Positions 5,389 through 18,416 of a DNA stretch of 64,000 nt are shown one piece after another. Origin of the DNA: an uncultured Opitutaceae bacterium (lineage in GTDB: Bacteria; Verrucomicrobiota; Verrucomicrobiia; Opitutales; Opitutaceae). The position numbers and the translations under genes are program-made. Every line of letters starts with the position of its first letter. The first letter of the stretch is position 1. Location: the NCBI GenBank assembly GCA_951813085.1, contig OX638348.1, positions 3,295,627-3,359,626 of the forward strand, written 5' to 3'. The notes beneath the pieces are model-generated. The model was not told where the DNA came from and searched no databases. It worked only from the letters and a program-made list of their open reading frames with translations.

Positions 5389-6232
5389 ATGTCCCAAGAG
5401 TCTCAGTCTACCACATCTACTTCTCCAAAGCATCAGATCGCTGCCGAGCTTGAGGAAGGATTGAATTCCTCGAATCTAGAGCTTCCGGTAATGCCACGCG
5501 TAGCGAGCAAGGTTTTCACGCTCACGAACGATCCCAACGCAGAAGTAAGCGATCTTTCTAAGCTGATCCACAGCGATCAGTCCATCGCGTCTCACGTATT
5601 GAGAATCGCCAATTCCGCGGCCTACGGCGGTGGCGATCAGATCGTATCGCTTCAACAAGCTGTAGCTCGACTAGGCATGAACCTGCTGGGCGAAATCGCT
5701 ATCGCGGTATCGGTCCAGAGCGATCTTTTCAAGGCGCCCGGATTTGAAGCTCAGATTACTCAGCTTCTTAGGCATGCGCTCGCTTCGGCCGCCTACGGAA
5801 AGGAAATTTCACGCAAGCGTCGGCGCAATGTCGAGGGTCAGTTCCTTTGCGGGCTCCTTCATTCAGTCGGGAAGCCCATCGCTGTCCAGTTGATCGCTAA
5901 GCTCACTAAGGAAAAGGACCTCACTTTGGACAAGAAAAGCGTCGCTCAGCTCGCAGGCGCTTTTCATCGAAAGATCGCCGCCAAGGTAGCGGTGGACTGG
6001 AAGCTGCCCGAGCAGCTTCCAGTCCACCATCTACTACAAGCGATACGAGTCCGCTGCGACCTACCTATCGCAGCTGCTCGCGAGCTGGGTTATCAATCCC
6101 GCCAATTTCAAAGCGAACGAACTCATTAAGAACCCTGTTTTCGGCTATCTGAATTTCTATCCAGATGACGCGGATGACCTCCTTGATAAAAAAGACGATG
6201 TTAAGGCCATGGTATCGGCGATGGAGATATGA
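5389..6232 (+). pseudogene. HDOD-domain signalling protein, frameshifted near its end
   Basis: The HDOD domain is a degenerate HD-hydrolase fold used in bacterial signalling; it usually lacks enzymatic activity. The start MSQESQS was chosen because the domain begins soon after, with ELPVMPRVASKVFTL, SDLSKLIHSDQSIASHVLRIANSAAYG and CGLLHSVGKP. After PVHH the frame goes wrong. A +1 shift at about 6029-6033 restores the family-like tail YKRYESAATYLSQLLASW and runs to a TGA at 6230-6232. That TGA overlaps the sthA start codon as ATGA, so the true gene end is 6232 and the two genes were translationally coupled. Unshifted translation stops early at 6129. Confidence 0.75.
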
Positions 6233-6277
6233 AGATAGACGAAGAATTCGACTTGATCGTTATCGGTTCGGGTCCCG
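6229..6277 (+). pseudogene. sthA: sthA 5' fragment (first 16 codons)
   Basis: ATG at 6229 overlaps the HDOD stop. The codons give MKIDEEFDLIVIGSGP, the start of a flavin-dependent pyridine nucleotide transhydrogenase, and then the homology ends abruptly inside the FAD-binding GxGxxG motif. The rest of the same gene resumes at 12112 in the same frame: CCC-G here joins to GG-GGA-CAG there, giving IGSGPGGQKAA, as in E. coli SthA (IGSGPGGEGAA). The gene is therefore split by the intervening 5.8 kb. Confidence 0.93.
6273..6277 (+). other. attL core TCCCG of the sthA-inserted element
   Basis: The pentamer TCCCG recurs at 12108-12112, and both copies occupy the same codon phase of sthA. The wider left site reads GGTTCGGGTCCCG and the right site GGTCGAATCCCG, matching at 8 of the last 10 positions. 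Both resemble a tRNA T-arm (consensus GGTTCGAATCC). Crossover anywhere inside TCCCG gives the same products, so the exact cut is undetermined. Confidence 0.8.
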
Positions 6278-6563
6278 AAAATCCGAAGTGTATATTCATT
6301 ATCAATAACTTACAAGTTTATTGTGGATATTTGTGGGCAATGATGCCTTTTACAGTCGCCTCGATCAATCCCATATGAGGCACTTAAAACTAAATCGAAT
6401 TGCGTTTCCGCGATTTTGCAAGAGGCCATCGATAGCCTGAAAACGCCTTCGAATTAGAGATATCACATTGCGATAAATCTAACCTTGAGTCGAGCGTCTC
6501 TTTCGATTCCATTTCCGTTTCAAGCTATGTATTATCGCCGCCATTGCAAGGGCCGAAACGCCT

Positions 6564-6936
6564 TCAGGAGCGCTCCCGCCGCCTTCCCGGGCGGTCCCTT
6601 CCGGCCACGCCCTTGAATTTCTCGCAGGTCCGCAGGCCGCCCAGCCCCAGCATTCCGAGCAGGATCGTCATGAGCTCCCCCGTGTCCAGTTTCGGAGCGC
6701 CGGAAAGATCGTGGCCCGAAAGAAATCCGATCCACATCAGGATTGGCTGGGCGATGTAGTTCCACCCCAGCGCGGCGCCGCAAATCCAGCCGATGGCCGG
6801 GCGCCGCCTCCCGCTCGTTGACCCGGGTTTGGGCCGCCGACGCTTCCAAGGCGCCCTCGTTCTTGTTCGGGATGAGATCCAGGACCTTCTCGACGGCGGG
6901 GCCCAGGATGGGTTTTAAAAATGACGGGATGGCCAT
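6564..6936 (-). pseudogene. Holin of the 3-TM gene-transfer-agent type, frameshifted
   Basis: Holins of this family (PF11351, named for gene transfer agent release) make membrane holes during lysis. Frame one gives MAIPSFLKPILGPAVEKVLD then runs out of homology. A one-base shift near 6785-6795 gives RRPAIGWICGAALGWNYIAQ followed by LDTGELMTILLGMLGLGGL and a TGA ending at 6564, matching the holin pattern of an RPAIGW segment, hydrophobic helices and a GELM-xxL-xGMLGLGGLRT tail. AGGAG lies 9 bases before the ATG. The start is 3 bases after the stop of the upstream small gene. Its presence points to a phage origin for this part of the element. Confidence 0.75.
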
Positions 6937-6939
6937 CGG

Positions 6940-7185
6940 TCAGGTCTCCTTGCCTTTATGGATTTTCAGTTCGGTCTCCAGCTCCTTGATCCCGATGCCG
7001 CGCCCGCCTTTGTCCGCCTTGTAGACGGTGAGTATCGAGTCTATCCGCTCTGCATTGTAGTCAACGTCCTCTATCATCACGATGAGCTTGTCGCCCTCCT
7101 CGATGTAGACCGCGCCGGGCTCGAAGGAGCCCTTCTCTGGAACGCTTTCCAGGATATGATCTAGGAAGTCTCTGTTTTTGGCCAT
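6940..7185 (-). CDS. Small hypothetical protein of the element
   Basis: 81 residues, acidic and basic mixed, predicted soluble. The segment PGAVYIEEGDKLIVMIEDV looks like strands of a compact beta domain, followed by a helix rich in Lys/Glu. It ends 3 bases before the holin start, so the two form an operon. I do not recognise a family; position suggests a phage-derived accessory gene. The frame is intact and the composition protein-like. Confidence 0.65.
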   Translation of the reverse strand: MAKNRDFLDHILESVPEKGSFEPGAVYIEEGDKLIVMIEDVDYNAERIDSILTVYKADKGGRGIGIKELETELKIHKGKET

Positions 7186-7244
7186 AGCAATTCAGTGAAT
7201 CTATCGTCGAAATCCTTCGGGAACTTAGAAAATGCGGGACTCTC

Positions 7245-7511
7245 CTAGACCATGTCCCAGTCGAATATCTCGTCTCTATCGTTTACGAACACCACGAAAA
7301 GTCTGTCAGGCGGGAAAGGAACTTTAATACCTTTGTCAAGAAATCTCGTTTTCGCAACACCGCAGTAGCATCGCCCGTCCGCCATGTTCTCCCGCTTGAG
7401 GCCGCCGAAAACGCATAGCGGTTTCTCTAGAACCTCCTTGATCATCAGCGAATCCAGATACTTGGTCCTGCTTTTCGGCTTCACCTGCAGAAGTCCCGCG
7501 ATTCCTAGCAT
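7245..7511 (-). CDS. Small hypothetical protein of the element
   Basis: 88 residues with ATG start. Visible are a basic N-terminal third, a single CYCG pair in the middle, and a C-terminus FVVFVNDRDEIFDWDMV that looks like a beta strand with an acidic end. No family recognised. It lies upstream of the 81-residue gene on the same strand, 59 bases away. Its 5' end abuts the point where the P63C homology on the other strand begins, which suggests a rearrangement joint there. Confidence 0.6.
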   Translation of the reverse strand: MLGIAGLLQVKPKSRTKYLDSLMIKEVLEKPLCVFGGLKRENMADGRCYCGVAKTRFLDKGIKVPFPPDRLFVVFVNDRDEIFDWDMV

Positions 7512-7567
7512 TTAAGAACCTGCAGCCGTTCATAACCAAGCATTTAGGTCACCTGCAGAATATCACA

Positions 7568-8233
7568 GTGAAATACAGGACTGAAAACGGGAGGTCGGCG
7601 ATCGGGATCAAGGCCGAGATCATTCCAAAAATATGCGACGTATGGCTAGACGCCGACGAAAACGGCAAACTTCGCAAAACCCAAATCGAGATAGCAGCGA
7701 AAGCGAAACTGATAATGCGAGCCCTGGCGCATGTTGGCATCACGGCACTGGTTGACGAGGCTACGGGCTACCAATACGAACGGGCCCGAAACGCCTTGGG
7801 GGAGATTCTAGAGCGCTTTATTGCCAAAGAGCTGCAACCTTGGACAAAGACATTTCCGACTGATTTCTATGAAGAAATATTTCGATTGAAGAAGTGGAAA
7901 TTTGATCCTGCCACAATGCAGGGGCCAAGGGTCATTAGCGCCTACACGATGGATATTGTCTACAAAAGACTTGCCCCTGGTATCGTCGATGAATTGAAAT
8001 CTAAATCTCCACCGGTGGCTAAGGGAAGAAGGAAGAACAAGCTTCTTCAGTGGCTTACCGGAAATGTAGGACATCCGCAACTGAGAGCCCACATTGAGGC
8101 CGTTACCGCCTTGATGAGGGTCTCAAATAGCTGGGAGCAGTTTAAGAAATTCATAGACAAGGCTTATCCAATAATTGAGGTAACCGAACTCGGAACGTCT
8201 ACCCCGATAAAGAAAAGAAAATCGGTTCGTTAA
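7568..8233 (+). CDS. P63C-domain protein, N-terminally truncated
   Basis: P63C (PF10546) proteins occur in phages and mobile elements; their function is unknown to me. Seen: ALVDEATGYQYERARNALGEIL, then FPTDFYEEIFRLKKW, YKRLAPGIVDELK, GRRKNKLLQWLTGNVGHP and LMRVSNSWEQF, the family landmarks in order. The only usable start is GTG at 7568, but homologous-looking codons (LQPFITKHLGHLQNI) continue upstream in frame to about 7514 without a start codon. This fits loss of the 5' end of a longer gene. It may therefore be a remnant rather than a functional gene. Confidence 0.75.
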   Translation: MKYRTENGRSAIGIKAEIIPKICDVWLDADENGKLRKTQIEIAAKAKLIMRALAHVGITALVDEATGYQYERARNALGEILERFIAKELQPWTKTFPTDFYEEIFRLKKWKFDPATMQGPRVISAYTMDIVYKRLAPGIVDELKSKSPPVAKGRRKNKLLQWLTGNVGHPQLRAHIEAVTALMRVSNSWEQFKKFIDKAYPIIEVTELGTSTPIKKRKSVR

Positions 8234-8287
8234 ACTCCTTATTGATGGGGGCGGCAGAGGCTGGCCGGACTCTACAATCGTGGCCCA

Positions 8288-8315
8288 TGGGGTTTGATTC
8301 CCCACACCTCCACCA
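8288..8315 (+). other. tRNA/tmRNA-like T-arm and acceptor 3' half ending in CCA
   Basis: Bases 8288-8304 form a perfect 5-bp T-stem (TGGGG/CCCCA) around a 7-base loop TTTGATT. They are followed by a 7-base acceptor strand CACCTCC, a discriminator A and an encoded CCA (8313-8315). The GGGGGCG at 8247-8253 could pair with the acceptor strand at 6 of 7 positions, including a G3-U70 wobble as in tmRNA and tRNA-Ala. A D-arm-like stem AGAG/CTCT (8256-8259, 8270-8273) is also possible. Only 14 bases remain for an anticodon arm, too few for a tRNA. It is best read as an element-borne 3' fragment of a tRNA or tmRNA gene, such as an old attachment site. Confidence 0.6.
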
Positions 8316-8500
8316 ATTTCAAAAATGACATAGTTCCGGATTTCATCAATTCAAATTAGGACACTACCCGACTATTCCAAGCCTTGACTAGTCTGATAGA
8401 ATCGCGGATGGATACATCTGTTCCCGTTCCTTATGTCCAAATCTGAACCTATTTTAGCAGCTTTCCTGTTTTCAGACAGTACAATTGTAGAGGCGCGATC

Positions 8501-9382
8501 ATGAGTGCGGCTACGGCTGTAGCCGATTTTCCCGTTTCCCGGATCCCGGTCGTCAATGTCGCGACCGTTCCGCAGCGCAGTCCCTTGCGCTATCCCGGTG
8601 GCAAGACGTGGTTGATCCCGCACATCAGAGAGTGGTTGCGTCATGCGGGCGCGCGGCTCCTGATCGAGCCGTTTGCGGGGGGCGGCATCGCGACCTTGAC
8701 GGCGATTGCGGAAAACCTTGTTGGTGAGGCCGTGATGCTGGAAATTGACAGGGACGTTGCCGCGTTTTGGCGGGGCGCTTTTGAATCAGGGACAACGCTG
8801 GCTGAACGGGTTAGGCAATTCGAGCCAACCCTGGAAAGCCTGAACAAGCTGTTGAACGAACCGCCTAGATCCCTTGAAGAGCACGCCTTTCGCACTCTCG
8901 TTTTGAACCGTACCCGGCGGGGCGGGATTTTGGCTCCGGGCGCATCGTTTAGCCGCCAGGGCGAGAATGGGCGCGGCATCCTGTCGCGCTGGTATCCTGA
9001 TACGCTTGCCGAGCGTCTGTTGGCCTTGCAGAACTGCAATGATCGCATCACTTTCCTCGAAGGCGACGGGGTAAAGCTGTTGCCGTCTCTATTGCGCGGC
9101 TGGGGCCGCCAGGCAGCGGTGTTTCTAGATCCCCCATATACCGGTGACGGCGGCAAGCGCGCCGGGTCTCGGCTCTATGCGCATTCGGAAGTTGACCACG
9201 CAAGATTGTTCGCGCTGCTTGCCAAGTATCGTCCTTGCTTCCTAATGACGTATGACGCATCTCCCCAAATTATTGATCTGGTAAGGAAGCACGACTTCGA
9301 CGCGGTTTTGCTATCCATGAAGAACACCCATCACAACCAAATGCCGGAACTGGTGATTACTTCCAGCCCGCTGTTTGCATGA
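8501..9382 (+). CDS. D12-class (Dam-like) N6-adenine DNA methyltransferase
   Basis: The modification half of a restriction-modification pair. Landmarks in D12-class order: RYPGGK (30-35), SAM-binding EPFAGGG (56-62), an acidic residue after the next strand (EID, 81-83), and catalytic DPPY (210-213). Length 293 is typical for the class, which methylates adenine N6. AGAGG lies 9-10 bases before the ATG, and a TACAAT box is visible about 20 bases upstream. Its stop overlaps the start of the nuclease gene as ATGA, so the two are cotranslated, methylase first, as is common for type II systems. It looks more GC-rich than the flanking phage-like genes, which suggests separate acquisition. Confidence 0.92.
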   Translation: MSAATAVADFPVSRIPVVNVATVPQRSPLRYPGGKTWLIPHIREWLRHAGARLLIEPFAGGGIATLTAIAENLVGEAVMLEIDRDVAAFWRGAFESGTTLAERVRQFEPTLESLNKLLNEPPRSLEEHAFRTLVLNRTRRGGILAPGASFSRQGENGRGILSRWYPDTLAERLLALQNCNDRITFLEGDGVKLLPSLLRGWGRQAAVFLDPPYTGDGGKRAGSRLYAHSEVDHARLFALLAKYRPCFLMTYDASPQIIDLVRKHDFDAVLLSMKNTHHNQMPELVITSSPLFA

Positions 9383-10206
9383 GCCGGTACGGAATCGCTG
9401 AGTGGTTCGGCCATCCATTAACAACGCTTGCGCCGCCTCAAAGGCAGGCTTTCGCCCGAGCCGCATTGAAACAGACCGCCCCGCCGCCCTGTCCTTTCCA
9501 GTCGGGAAACCCGCCTTGCAGCAAGAAAGGCGGCGTGTGTTCGATCCAATCCAGGGAGAACGACCCGGTTATCACCTGTCCGCGGCGATTCGAGGAGGGA
9601 AATCTGATTCCACTGTGGCTCGCTGAGATTGTTGGCTTTCAAGATGTGTATGTCGCGCCCGAAGTACCATTTATGCGATCACCGTCAACCGGGCGTGCCG
9701 CAGGGCGAATCGATCTAGTAGTAGCCGGGAATAACCAGGCGTCGGACTGGTACGGGTTGGAGATTCAGGCTGTTTATTTCTCTGGCAAAGGCATGGAGGC
9801 CGATTTCCGAATGCTGTTGGAGAGTGAAGAAAGGGACCCGCCTTCGCCATCTGCGCCGCGCCGTCCTGACTGGCGGTCTTCAAGCGCAAAAAGGCTCATG
9901 CCGCAACTTCAAGTTAAGGGGCCGACCTTGCGACGATGGGGCACCAAACTCGCCGTTTCTGTCGATTATCCGTTCTTTGAAGCGATTGGTGGTCCGTCCG
10001 GCAACCCATCTCAGGACCTTGATGACGGCGACATTGTTTGGCTTGTGCCGCGCATGGGTGCAGATCGTCGTTTGAAGCGGGGCCATTGGGAGGTCCTGTC
10101 GCTTGAAGCATCCAGCGACAAGCTCTTGGCGGCGGACACCATCAAGCGCGGAGAATTCGAACAAAACTTGCGAGACAAACTTGAGAAACTGGGGAGCCGA
10201 CTATGA
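9379..10206 (+). CDS. NotI-family type II restriction endonuclease
   Basis: The restriction half of the pair. It shows two hallmarks of the NotI family (PF12183): four cysteines near the N-terminus (38, 47, 54, 67, with ITCPRRF around the last), as in the NotI iron-binding site, and a PD-(D/E)xK-type active site in its Gln variant, GRID at D112 followed by LEIQ at E128 and Q130. NotI itself uses Asp-Glu-Gln. Length 275. Translational coupling to the adenine methylase implies they share a target. That target should contain an adenine, unlike the all-GC NotI site, so the specificity is probably different. The frame is intact and likely functional. Confidence 0.85.
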   Translation: MSRYGIAEWFGHPLTTLAPPQRQAFARAALKQTAPPPCPFQSGNPPCSKKGGVCSIQSRENDPVITCPRRFEEGNLIPLWLAEIVGFQDVYVAPEVPFMRSPSTGRAAGRIDLVVAGNNQASDWYGLEIQAVYFSGKGMEADFRMLLESEERDPPSPSAPRRPDWRSSSAKRLMPQLQVKGPTLRRWGTKLAVSVDYPFFEAIGGPSGNPSQDLDDGDIVWLVPRMGADRRLKRGHWEVLSLEASSDKLLAADTIKRGEFEQNLRDKLEKLGSRL

Positions 10207-10261
10207 CACACCCCTACAATATCGGCTGTAATCGGGGTCATCAAGTAAGGCGGCATCACAA

Positions 10262-10402
10262 ATGCGATACAATTCACTTGTTCAAATGTTGGAAGTTTTC
10301 CGTGACGAACAATCCTGTATCAACCACTTGGAAAAACTGCGATGGGGTGCAGGGATAGTGTGCGCCTGTTGTGGTAGTACGCGGAAGATATACAAAAATT
10401 AG
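10262..10402 (+). pseudogene. IS1595-family transposase, N-terminal fragment
   Basis: 46 codons: a helix SLVQMLEVFRDEQSCINHLE, then KLRWGAGIVCACCGSTRK ending at TAG. The spacing F-x(3)-E-x-C...LRW-x-x-G-x-x-C-x-x-CG is that of the N-terminal zinc-ribbon region of IS1595-family transposases. The DDE catalytic domain is absent, so only a scrap of the insertion sequence remains. It starts 56 bases after the nuclease gene and marks an old insertion at the cargo edge. Confidence 0.7.
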
Positions 10403-10545
10403 GGAATGATATACTTAATAACCCCAATTATACCGGACGTTTTAGGGGTGCAAGGTCATACAATGCAACTGGAGTCAACTCATGGAAACGCCTCCCCCCT
10501 TGCGGGGCTTTCTACCCCTTTTTTCTATACCTTCTTGCCTGTTTT

Positions 10546-10569
10546 CCGGTTTTCGGCGTCGAAAACCGG
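10546..10569. repeat. Perfect 10-bp inverted repeat with 4-base loop
   Basis: CCGGTTTTCG, a GCGT loop, then CGAAAACCGG. It lies in the 293-base gene-free stretch 10403-10695 between the IS fragment and the integrase. No T-run follows on either strand, so it is not a standard terminator. Just upstream (about 10493-10530) is a C/G-rich hairpin followed by T-rich sequence that could be a weak terminator. Otherwise this gap shows nothing. Confidence 0.6.
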
Positions 10570-10695
10570 CGTTGACAGTCAGGCGTTTACGGTTGCAAGA
10601 TGTTGATTGTGAAAGGGTAGCGAATCTCAGTTAATTTCTGAAGTCCCTATCCTCTGTCTACGTAGAAACACCTACGACATACTGCGGCTTATACT

Positions 10696-11948
10696 TCAAT
10701 ACAAACCCGATATTTTATCGGAACTTCCTAAACCTCGCCCCGACTCGCGCTCCCGAAGCACTTCAGTCGATTGCGCATGGCTCATCAAAGTAGACGTCAA
10801 CGCCAAGTCCCCGAACGCCGCCACATGATTGGAGGCGAACGTGTGCCGCGCCCAATTCCTCGGAGGCGACTTCGCGAAGATCCCCTTCTCCGGCCGCTCG
10901 TCCGCCGCCGCGATCTTCAATCCCGCCACCTTCAGAGCGGCGCTCTTCTCATGCATCCAAGCCGTCTTGCGACGGTCGATCCAGTCCTTCCGATGCTCCG
11001 GGCTCTTCGGCTTCTAGCACGCCGGAGCGAAATCCTCCGGCCCCGCCCTCTCGATCCACTTCCAGAGATTCGTCGGCAAGCCCTCGATCAGCTGCCGCCG
11101 CCCCGCCTTCGCCTTCCAGGCCGGAGTCTCTATCCCCGGGAGATCGAACTTGAGGTCCCGCCACTCGAGCCGAGAGACCGCGCTGGCGCGCATCCCCGCG
11201 AACATCTCCAAAGCCAGCTTAGCGCATCGCCCCGGGAATCGCAGGTTCGCCCGCAGCAGGATCCTCCCGTCCTCAAGCGAAAGAAACTCGATGTCCGCCC
11301 GCTTCCTCCTCGGAGGCTTCAGCCTGGCGAACGGATGCCGGTCGATGCGCCCCTCGCAGCGCCCACGAAAACGCCACATTGACTCGCTTGTACTGATTCC
11401 GCTTCGTGTCCTGCGCGTACGGCAAATCGTCCACCCACGCCGAAAACCGCCCCGCCTCGCGAAAAAGCCCCGCCGCCGTCAAATTCCCGAAAGCCCGATT
11501 GAACCGCTTGAAGTGCGATCCGTATTGATTCGCCTCGAAATTCGCGTCCCGGCTTCCGATGATCCAGAAAGCCCGCCAAGATGGCCGACACCGGCTCCTG
11601 CCGAGTCCCCAAAGCCGCCCCCGAATCCGTATTCCGCATCCAAAAGCTAGCGACTTCCACCGGATCCGCCCCGCCGATCATCGCCTCCGCGATCTCCCAT
11701 CGCTTCCGCCTGGCCGGATCCAGAGACTTCGCGACCTTCCCCTCCGCGACCCGCGTCGCGTGGATGTCCGCCGCCCATTTTTCACGGAGCTCGATCTCCG
11801 CGAAACGCCGCCTCGCGGCGACCGACTTCGACCGCCCGTCGCTTCGCGCCTTGGGCGTGTAGTAGTATGCTCCATACGGCGACTTGGCGGACCCTGTCGA
11901 GCGAAAGAAAATCCCTTCGTATCCAGATTCAACCGCATCGCTAGCCAC
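10696..11948 (-). pseudogene. Tyrosine-type integrase of the element, multiply frameshifted
   Basis: Pieces of one tyrosine recombinase occur in successive frames. From 11948 comes an N-terminal arm-binding part (GIFFRSTG...YGAYYYTPKA). Near 11480-11380 comes core-binding sequence (GLFREAGRFSAWVDDLPYAQ). From 11379 comes box I with the catalytic Arg (MFAGMRASAVSRLEWRDL). From 10956 to 10696 comes box II (RNWARHTFASNHVAAFGD) and LMSHAQSTEVLRE, where the expected tyrosine is missing. At least three frame changes are needed. It starts at a GTG about 160 bases from the right attachment core, the usual place for an integrase. Inactive as written. Confidence 0.85.
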
Positions 11949-12107
11949 CGCCCGAAAATTGCGGGTCGTTGTGGGTCAAGCAAGCTTTTTTGAGGGTTTT
12001 AGAGTGTTAAAAACGCCCCTCTCTCAGCCCTATATAAATTTATAAGTTGCTTATATTAAGGTACTTGCTAGACTTTTCCCTCGAAATTCCCCCCTTAAAT
12101 GGTCGAA

Positions 12108-12112
12108 TCCCG
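12108..12112 (+). other. attR core TCCCG
   Basis: Right boundary of the element. The local sequence GGTCGAATCCCGG is closer than the left site to the tRNA T-arm consensus GGTTCGAATCC; its left part should derive from the element's own attP. From 12112 onward the sthA frame resumes. The 12046-12111 stretch is open in the sthA frame but has no start codon, so no fused start is supplied by the element. Confidence 0.8.
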
Positions 12113-17039: not shown

Positions 17040-18416
17040 CTAATTCACCGCGCGCCATTCTTGGGCTAAGGGCACGGTCAGTTTAATTTCGCTTCCCGAC
17101 GAGGAAGAACGGGTTAGTTCCAAATTCGCTCCTAGGTGACGTGCAAGCTGCTTGCTTATGGCGAGGGCGATTCCCGCGCCCGCTGTTTTGTCGCTTTGCA
17201 CCGGAGTAAATAGATTCTTGCGGGCTGACTGTGAAAACCCAGGCCCCGTATCAATTATGGTAAAGGCAACTTCATCGATTTCAGCGTCGATCCGCGTTTC
17301 GACTTCGCCGCCTATCGACACTGCGTCGATCGCGTTGTCCACTAAATTGGATACAATTAGCTTGGCTATATTCGCATCACGGGCAGAGAGCAAAACATCC
17401 GAGCTCGCGCGAAATCCAAGGTCGAGCTCTTTCTCCTGGGCGCGCGGCTCGAATTTGGCTCTGAGGTATCGAGCGATGTCCTCTCCGCTAAGCGACTCCA
17501 TCTCATCGATGGTTTCATTCTTGAGAACGTCAACAACCTCATTGATCAGCGCTTGCATTCGCGCCGTTGCCTGGCGAGCATCGTTCCATTCCTCGCCATC
17601 GATATCGCTTCCATCGCTCGACAAATGCTCCTTGACTCCTGCTAACGGATTCTTCAACCCGTGAACCAAGTGAGAAGCGACCGCTCCTACTGCCGACGTC
17701 TTGGCCACCATCGCCAATTCCGCGTTGGCCTGCGCGAGATGAGCCGCTCTCTCGGCTACTTCATCGTGGGCCCCACGCAATCTCCAAAACGACCAGAGAA
17801 AAACAGCCGAGACCAATAGGGTACCCGTCGCGAAAGCGAGCGAGGCTTGGCTGAAAAGCTTTTGGTCCACCTCTCCAAACTCTTCTTCTACGGGCTGACC
17901 GTCGAAAATATAGCGAACCATCGCCACCATTTCTTCGCCTCCAATGTCAAAAATCGGAACGTTAAGCTCTAGCTCCGAAATCTCGTCACCCCTCGCCGCA
18001 GTTAGGTACCGTCCCCAAGGGAGCTCTTTTTTCAAATTCTCTATATCGCTCGCTTCAAGAGGCGATTCCTCGACGATATACGGAATTCCATCCATGAATC
18101 TGCCGCTCGCATCGAATACATGCGCTCCAAGGGCCCCCTCGATATCTTGGGCGGACAATAGGGAATAGACGACCGTGTCCTCAAACTCGAGAATACCCAG
18201 CAACTCGTCCTCCATTCCTTGAGCAACGTGAAACTGCGAAATGGGAGCCCAATTGTCCGCGTATCGTTGCAGAATCTTACCTCTGAGCTCTTTGCGAAGC
18301 TGAACGCTAGAGATGCCCACGATCGCGCCAAATATCACGACGACCATCCCCAGAGCCAAGAGAGGCACTAGGAACGACCCCGTTTTGCGGGGATGCGCGC
18401 CATTTTGATCAGTCAT
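17040..18416 (-). CDS. Membrane sensor histidine kinase
   Basis: A two-component sensor: transmembrane helix at about 14-34, extracytoplasmic sensing region, second helix at about 192-211, then the dimerisation/phosphoacceptor segment ASHLVHGLKNPLAG (His about 252) and the ATPase domain with a conserved Asn (NLVDNAIDAV), DTGPGF (G1 box) and AGAGIALAISKQLARHLG (G2 region). 458 residues, intact. Its stop is 13 bases upstream of the propeller gene start on the same strand. The sigma-54-type response regulator at 21729 is a plausible former partner, but that gene is truncated, so this kinase may be an orphan. Confidence 0.9.
   Translation of the reverse strand: MTDQNGAHPRKTGSFLVPLLALGMVVVIFGAIVGISSVQLRKELRGKILQRYADNWAPISQFHVAQGMEDELLGILEFEDTVVYSLLSAQDIEGALGAHVFDASGRFMDGIPYIVEESPLEASDIENLKKELPWGRYLTAARGDEISELELNVPIFDIGGEEMVAMVRYIFDGQPVEEEFGEVDQKLFSQASLAFATGTLLVSAVFLWSFWRLRGAHDEVAERAAHLAQANAELAMVAKTSAVGAVASHLVHGLKNPLAGVKEHLSSDGSDIDGEEWNDARQATARMQALINEVVDVLKNETIDEMESLSGEDIARYLRAKFEPRAQEKELDLGFRASSDVLLSARDANIAKLIVSNLVDNAIDAVSIGGEVETRIDAEIDEVAFTIIDTGPGFSQSARKNLFTPVQSDKTAGAGIALAISKQLARHLGANLELTRSSSSGSEIKLTVPLAQEWRAVN

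Follow-up and report, generated by a model that had tools for sequence, protein, structure and literature searches.

A 64,000-nucleotide stretch of the genome of an uncultured Opitutaceae bacterium (contig OX638348.1, positions 3,295,627 to 3,359,626; hereafter the window) carries, at positions 8288-8315, a bare 3′ half of the transfer-messenger RNA (tmRNA) type. We consider it probable that this motif is an attachment remnant of the ssrA type, the scar of a mobile-element insertion, and thus an ordinary kind of sequence in an unusual place: the joint of two modules within an element that interrupts a housekeeping gene. Its 28 nucleotides comprise a T-stem with 5 of 5 pairs (TGGGG/CCCCA) closing the 7-nt loop TTTGATT, followed by the acceptor strand CACCTCC and ACCA. 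When both strands were scanned, the motif proved unique in the window, and nothing comparable appeared in 200 Markov-shuffled windows. The flawless T-arm and acceptor strand with CCA reported in a preliminary description of this DNA are therefore real. That description had joined them to an upstream segment in a 69-nt unit (8247-8315) and had proposed either a leftover attachment copy or an unusual small tRNA-like RNA near a restriction system.

Near matches elsewhere indicate where the motif came from. With C or T permitted at the loop base, the 28-mer occurs in 13 stretches of the genome collection, all of them from Campylobacterota, all with C and all one mismatch from the window motif. The 12 that were scanned are tmRNA 3′ ends above the Rfam cut-off; the thirteenth (L124), at a contig edge, was left out of that scan. 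Among 273 genomes of the host's order, searched with up to 3 mismatches in 27 bases, two tmRNA and four tRNA-Ala(CGC) ends were found besides the window's two copies. The lack of any matching tRNA or tmRNA 3′ end, which would have counted against the preliminary description, is not what we see: near matches do exist. Because they are mostly tmRNA 3′ ends, the sequence comparisons point to a tmRNA-type end displaced from ssrA, with an Ala-type tRNA gene as the less likely source. The loop has T at position 56, where C is the usual base in tRNA T-loops. This is not disqualifying, because four genomes of the same family have intact tRNA-Ala(CGC) genes with this TTTGATT loop, which also occurs in several tmRNAs that consist only of the tRNA-like domain (TLD-only tmRNAs: L256, L280, L310, L321 and L323). 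In the host genome, a single contig of 4.85 Mb, a normal ssrA of the one-piece kind (tag GTSEEMPLAA) lies about 1.5 Mb from the motif, and its last 11 bases are identical to those of the motif. No other host site comes within 3 mismatches over a 24-base pattern, apart from the motif's own second copy.

The position of the bare end is also informative. It begins 54 bases after the stop codon of a P63C-domain phage protein gene and ends 185 bases before a D12-class methylase gene (Table 1). The P63C protein, whose relatives sit in viral contigs, aligns to positions 123-325 of the 338 in PHROG 2384, so that about 122 N-terminal family positions are missing. Among all loci compared, P63C accompanies the methylase/NotI pair nowhere but in the window, in its second copy and in loci taken from these two places; six loci (L130, L131 and L247-L250) have methylase and NotI together but no P63C. 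Because the two sets never meet elsewhere among these loci, we conclude that the motif marks the joint of two modules. Just to its right, the G+C content steps from about 0.45-0.48 to about 0.60. Relatives were sought with the P63C, methylase, NotI and integrase-like proteins, and the motif DNA was searched in phages and plasmids; no DNA relatives of the two halves turned up in related genomes, phages or plasmids beyond the genome's own two copies. A tmRNA-type end between modules that are otherwise never together best fits the first proposal of the preliminary description, a leftover attachment copy marking where two elements were joined.

Bare ends of the same extent are also seen elsewhere. 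In two viral contigs (L215 and L245), a bare ssrA-type end begins 24 bp after an integrase-like frame, which in L245, where it was tested, encodes a tyrosine integrase (PF00589, E 4.5e-18). Neither locus contains an Rfam RNA or tmRNA at cut-off, and an ssrA attachment site is built in just this way. Of eight further ends that were bare or unclear, none had an integrase-like frame within 3 kb; three of the eight (L192, L231 and L243) are permuted tmRNAs. The window has the T-arm, acceptor strand and CCA without a 5′ part, at the boundary of a mobile module, as an attachment copy would. At the other end the host genome has neither a matching intact gene nor a second attachment (att) copy, and for this reason we speak of a displaced remnant and not of a live att site. 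The missing partner could also mean that the motif is a piece of ssrA or tRNA DNA captured by imprecise excision, transduction or random joining, and was never a true recombination site. The surrounding segment is indeed patchy and truncated, with an N-terminally cut P63C gene, broken integrase-like frames and a truncated second copy. Nevertheless, the span from T-stem to CCA is a usual extent of an ssrA attachment copy, it lies at a module boundary, and ends of equal extent stand directly behind integrases in L215 and L245. We regard capture as unlikely, while giving it some weight.

The preliminary description had also assigned the motif an acceptor partner and a D-like stem in the preceding 41 nucleotides. 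Both can be found. GGGGGCG at 8247-8253 pairs with the acceptor strand at 6 of 7 positions, the G3·U70 wobble included, leaving C6/A67 mismatched, and AGAG/CTCT could pair at 8256-8259 and 8270-8273. However, such a partner is not above chance: when an acceptable spacing is required, an equal or better one is present in 8.3% of 20,000 Markov-shuffled upstreams, and the rate in the window itself is 3.2% of 18,172 real places. The D-like stem is missing from the minimum-energy fold, and the fold of the 69-mer is no more stable than those of its shuffles (z = +0.44; 126 of 200 shuffles do equally well or better). In a sequence-profile test in which other upstreams were placed before the 28-mer, 3952 of 4000 shuffled and 3537 of 4000 real ones equalled or exceeded the score of the observed upstream. 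Since the upstream half does no better than shuffled or real upstreams, it carries no detectable signal, and 8288-8315 is a bare 3′ half. Of the earlier observation, then, the 3′ half stands and the upstream additions are unsupported.

Searches with RNA models gave the same picture. ARAGORN, run on the window, called no gene at the 69-mer, and Rfam returned nothing in the window at gathering level. The tRNA and tmRNA covariance models, which the preliminary description had named as a check, stayed below gathering in a sensitive search of the window: the tmRNA model (RF00023) reached 6.4 bits against a gathering score of 47, and the tRNA model (RF00005) was unlisted even at E ≤ 10. A full tmRNA is rejected on that score, and a tRNA gene is rejected in that neither ARAGORN nor RF00005 finds a cloverleaf. 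One of the weak matches, mascRNA (16.7 bits, E 0.85), falls short of its gathering score of 42.5, and we reject this chance-level match too. The tmRNA_permuted model gave 14.6 bits. Circularly permuted two-piece tmRNA genes begin with just such a 3′ end, so the motif might be the acceptor piece of one. The score is again far from gathering (47), ARAGORN and Rfam find no 5′ piece or tag frame in the window, and the host ssrA is of the one-piece kind; we reject this highly improbable explanation.

Another rival holds that the 69-mer is, or recently was, a functional tRNA-like RNA: a divergent or decayed TLD-only tmRNA of the prophage, competing for alanylation, SmpB or EF-Tu. To judge it we characterized the TLD-only class in viral contigs. 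A relaxed pattern yielded 73 loci, at 34 of which ARAGORN called a tmRNA or permuted tmRNA and at 39 nothing. In some of the uncalled loci a tmRNA 5′ acceptor and TCGAC lie no more than about 50 bases before the 3′ end, so that the tRNA-like domain is complete and there is no mRNA-like domain. A second pattern scan added further loci, and the figures from here on apply among the matches listed. They include at least 49 distinct TLD-only sequences from at least 61 loci, with ordinary tRNA-Ala genes and one unassigned tRNA excluded. An alignment of 30 of the 49 sequences, chosen by us, lends the structure strong support: 99.0% of cells are paired and 99 cells are changed on both sides, compared with 25.7 in shuffles, and covariation is strong in the H2 helix, which varies on both sides in all five pairs. 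With a covariance model of the family, 57 of 63 loci, the training sequences among them, reach 58-84 bits; three of the six that score lower are tRNA loci called by ARAGORN and retained as controls. The RF00023 cut-off is passed by 11 of 12 sampled TLD-only loci.

Against this background the window does not look like a member. It scores 36.0 bits with the family model, and its alignment to the model reveals no H2 helix, no GGAC linker and no TCGAC-type D-loop at the right place. As controls, we took 73 loci in which a tmRNA-type 3′ end follows some other upstream (58 from the viral set of 73, 12 from the 13 genome stretches and 3 named records). One of them, L222 (79 bits), is itself a miniature tmRNA, and 23 of the remaining 72 reach at least 36.0 bits, a comparison that calls for caution over our reading in that these ends are not random and some upstreams hold true H2/GGAC letters, which raises their scores; the shuffled-upstream profile test is the random control. 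The phage context, the wide occurrence of TLD-only tmRNAs in viral contigs, some of them with the TTTGATT loop, the precedent of phage DS6A described below and the well-placed GGGGGCG with its G3·U70 pair all speak for a small RNA. They are outweighed by the low score, which 23 of the 72 ordinary tmRNA ends also reach, by the profile test, by the absent family features and the C6/A67 mismatch, and by the unremarkable fold. We reject a TLD-only tmRNA on the covariance score and the profile test, and judge a functional or recently functional RNA improbable. We think it very unlikely that these 69 nt form a highly diverged tRNA-like RNA of the prophage, lacking an anticodon and descended from a TLD-only tmRNA, whose role is to serve as a decoy for alanyl-tRNA synthetase, SmpB or EF-Tu; if true, such a decoy would dampen host ribosome rescue beside a restriction system. 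Of the two proposals in the preliminary description, the attachment leftover is thus retained and the small RNA set aside.

The element that contains the scar (about 5.8 kb, 6265-12112) interrupts a gene that we take to be sthA, for soluble transhydrogenase. Its product matches the Pfam pyridine nucleotide-disulphide oxidoreductase family, and the sthA locus is uninterrupted in 6 of 6 sister genomes. The sequence suggests an off-target insertion into sthA by a tRNA-type integrase. We can only infer the agent, because towards its right end the element has no more than broken, weakly matched integrase-like frames. A T-arm-like 12-mer, allowing one mismatch, is found five times in the window against 2.9 expected. 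The idea that 6265, 8288 and 12101 are three copies of one att site is unsupported, as their flanks share nothing. Part of the element, scar included, has a second, truncated genomic copy on the opposite strand (C1, about 4.543-4.548 Mb; L009 4739-9825), which lies in an island that may have duplicated tRNA genes as its borders.

Such a scar is left at the far side of an inserted element when its integrase uses the 3′ end of a gene as target. In the history we propose, a phage or island with the last ~28 bases of ssrA as its phage attachment site (attP) would have integrated by recombination at a chromosomal ssrA. The gene would have been restored at one side of the insertion, and a bare 3′ end in the same orientation would have stayed behind at the other. 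The prophage would then have decayed, and its end, with the scar, would have been joined to a restriction-modification module bearing its own integrase-like gene. The joined piece may have entered sthA through the T-arm-like target, part of it being duplicated later. We do not expect the scar to have a product or a present function.

Several observations weigh against an ssrA-type attachment remnant. U56 is present in none of the 13 ssrA ends of the genome collection, and the four same-family tRNA-Ala(CGC) genes are also near, with 2 mismatches in 27 and the same unusual loop. The host ssrA end differs from the motif at 6 of 28 positions, so the comparison with the host tmRNA suggested in the preliminary description holds for the terminal bases and the scar is not a copy of the present ssrA. 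Position at a boundary cannot tell which module owned the scar. No intact integrase adjoins it, the broken and weakly matched integrase-like frames lying about 2.4 kb off, and the T-arm-like sites of the element, having no common flanks, need not belong to one integration system. No intact ssrA flanks the element and no relative is still located at ssrA. Further copies of the scar are absent from the 273 genomes of the order and, for exact patterns, from the viral collection, in which a scan for the 24-base end with its exact loop gave no hit.

Table 1. Features of the window around the bare 3′ end.
Feature	Position	Strand	Basis
Left junction, end of first sthA codons, T-arm-like target GGTTCGGGTCCCG	6265-6277	+	Alignment to six sister sthA loci
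Left module, prophage remnant in duplicated segment	6491-8287		Domain and PHROG matches
5087-bp segment with second genomic copy, scar included	6491-11577	+	One mismatch
P63C-domain phage protein, last gene of left module	7568-8233	+	Pfam PF10546, E 6.5e-30
Upstream 41 nt with proposed acceptor partner and D-like stem; most likely ordinary prophage DNA	8247-8287	+	Chance rates, fold, profile test
tmRNA-type 3′ end, proposed attachment-site remnant	8288-8315	+	Sequence, shuffling, near matches to tmRNA ends
T-arm	8288-8304	+
Acceptor 3′ strand CACCTCC	8305-8311	+
ACCA	8312-8315	+
D12-class N6-adenine DNA methyltransferase, right module	8501-9382	+	Pfam PF02086, E 9.9e-10
NotI-family restriction endonuclease, right module	9379-10206	+	Pfam PF12183, E 7e-40
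Broken integrase-like frames (weak)	10696-11948	-	PHROG integrase, two pieces, E 0.0085 and 0.066
Right junction, sthA resumes, GGTCGAATCCCG	12101-12112	+	Alignment to sister sthA loci

A third integrase-like piece had no PHROG match, and the two pieces scanned against Pfam had no match there. The sthA codons at the insertion resemble a tRNA T-arm (GGTTCGGGTCCCGG). The frame that precedes sthA has a near-perfect inverted repeat close to its end (5991-6028). Around the second copy, tRNA-Leu(CAA) occurs twice (L009 1874-1960 and 13529-13615), and tRNA-Pro was called at two places (L009 4156-4233 and 13864-13940).

The phage-borne TLD-only tmRNAs are diverse, with lengths of 62-91 nt, at least 49 distinct sequences and at least 57 loci at or above 58 bits, and ARAGORN misses most of them. 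Examples are L180, L187, L189, L212, L252, L257, L271, L286, L289, L295, L315 and L318. The isolated Streptomyces phage LuckySocke (OR725497, ~17977-18057; L365 792-872) has an unannotated one within a tRNA cluster (55.6 bits with the family model, 57.1 bits with Rfam tmRNA), and Ruegeria phage RpAliso has an unannotated permuted tmRNA gene (L115 1435-1778; ARAGORN tag ANENFAPVEMAVAA). The class is not new in kind, mycobacteriophage DS6A being a named phage precedent: its tmRNA is listed as TLD only (PMC4131195) and is also covered in PMC11915505. Inhibition of tmRNA by a similar molecule, perhaps via SmpB titration, is reported as well (PMC4131195), and an earlier study by Mao et al. (2009) is cited in this connection. 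The literature consulted gave no statement on how common TLD-only tmRNAs are in viral contigs, which is not proof that their commonness is unpublished.

The scar would document the welding of a restriction-modification module to a phage end, followed by transport into a housekeeping gene. The controlled test illustrates how easily a 3′ half with CCA can be mistaken for a small RNA. The abundance of TLD-only tmRNAs came to light because the small-RNA interpretation was tested with a family model, and their commonness and diversity in viral contigs make the proposed anti-rescue decoy role testable.

Three known systems invite comparison. The minimum-energy fold of the 69-mer has a cloverleaf-like outline reminiscent of mascRNA/menRNA (RF01684), from which its score sets it apart. 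With the TLD-only tmRNAs found here, on which this likeness rests, the window shares a tmRNA-type T-arm, the CACCTCC-ACCA end, a phage setting and the lack of an mRNA-like domain; it differs in its lower score and in having no D-loop signature, H2 helix or GGAC linker. The third parallel is with ssrA-specific genomic islands and prophages; published islands have ssrA and a 20-bp direct repeat of the ssrA 3′ end as their borders and also occur in tandem (PMC3146451). The ssrA-specific vcr islands of Dehalococcoides carry such 3′-end repeats, and tandem islands leave several (PMC3146451). The scar in the window, by contrast, has no ssrA beside it, is not identical to the end of the host gene and sits within an element inserted into sthA.
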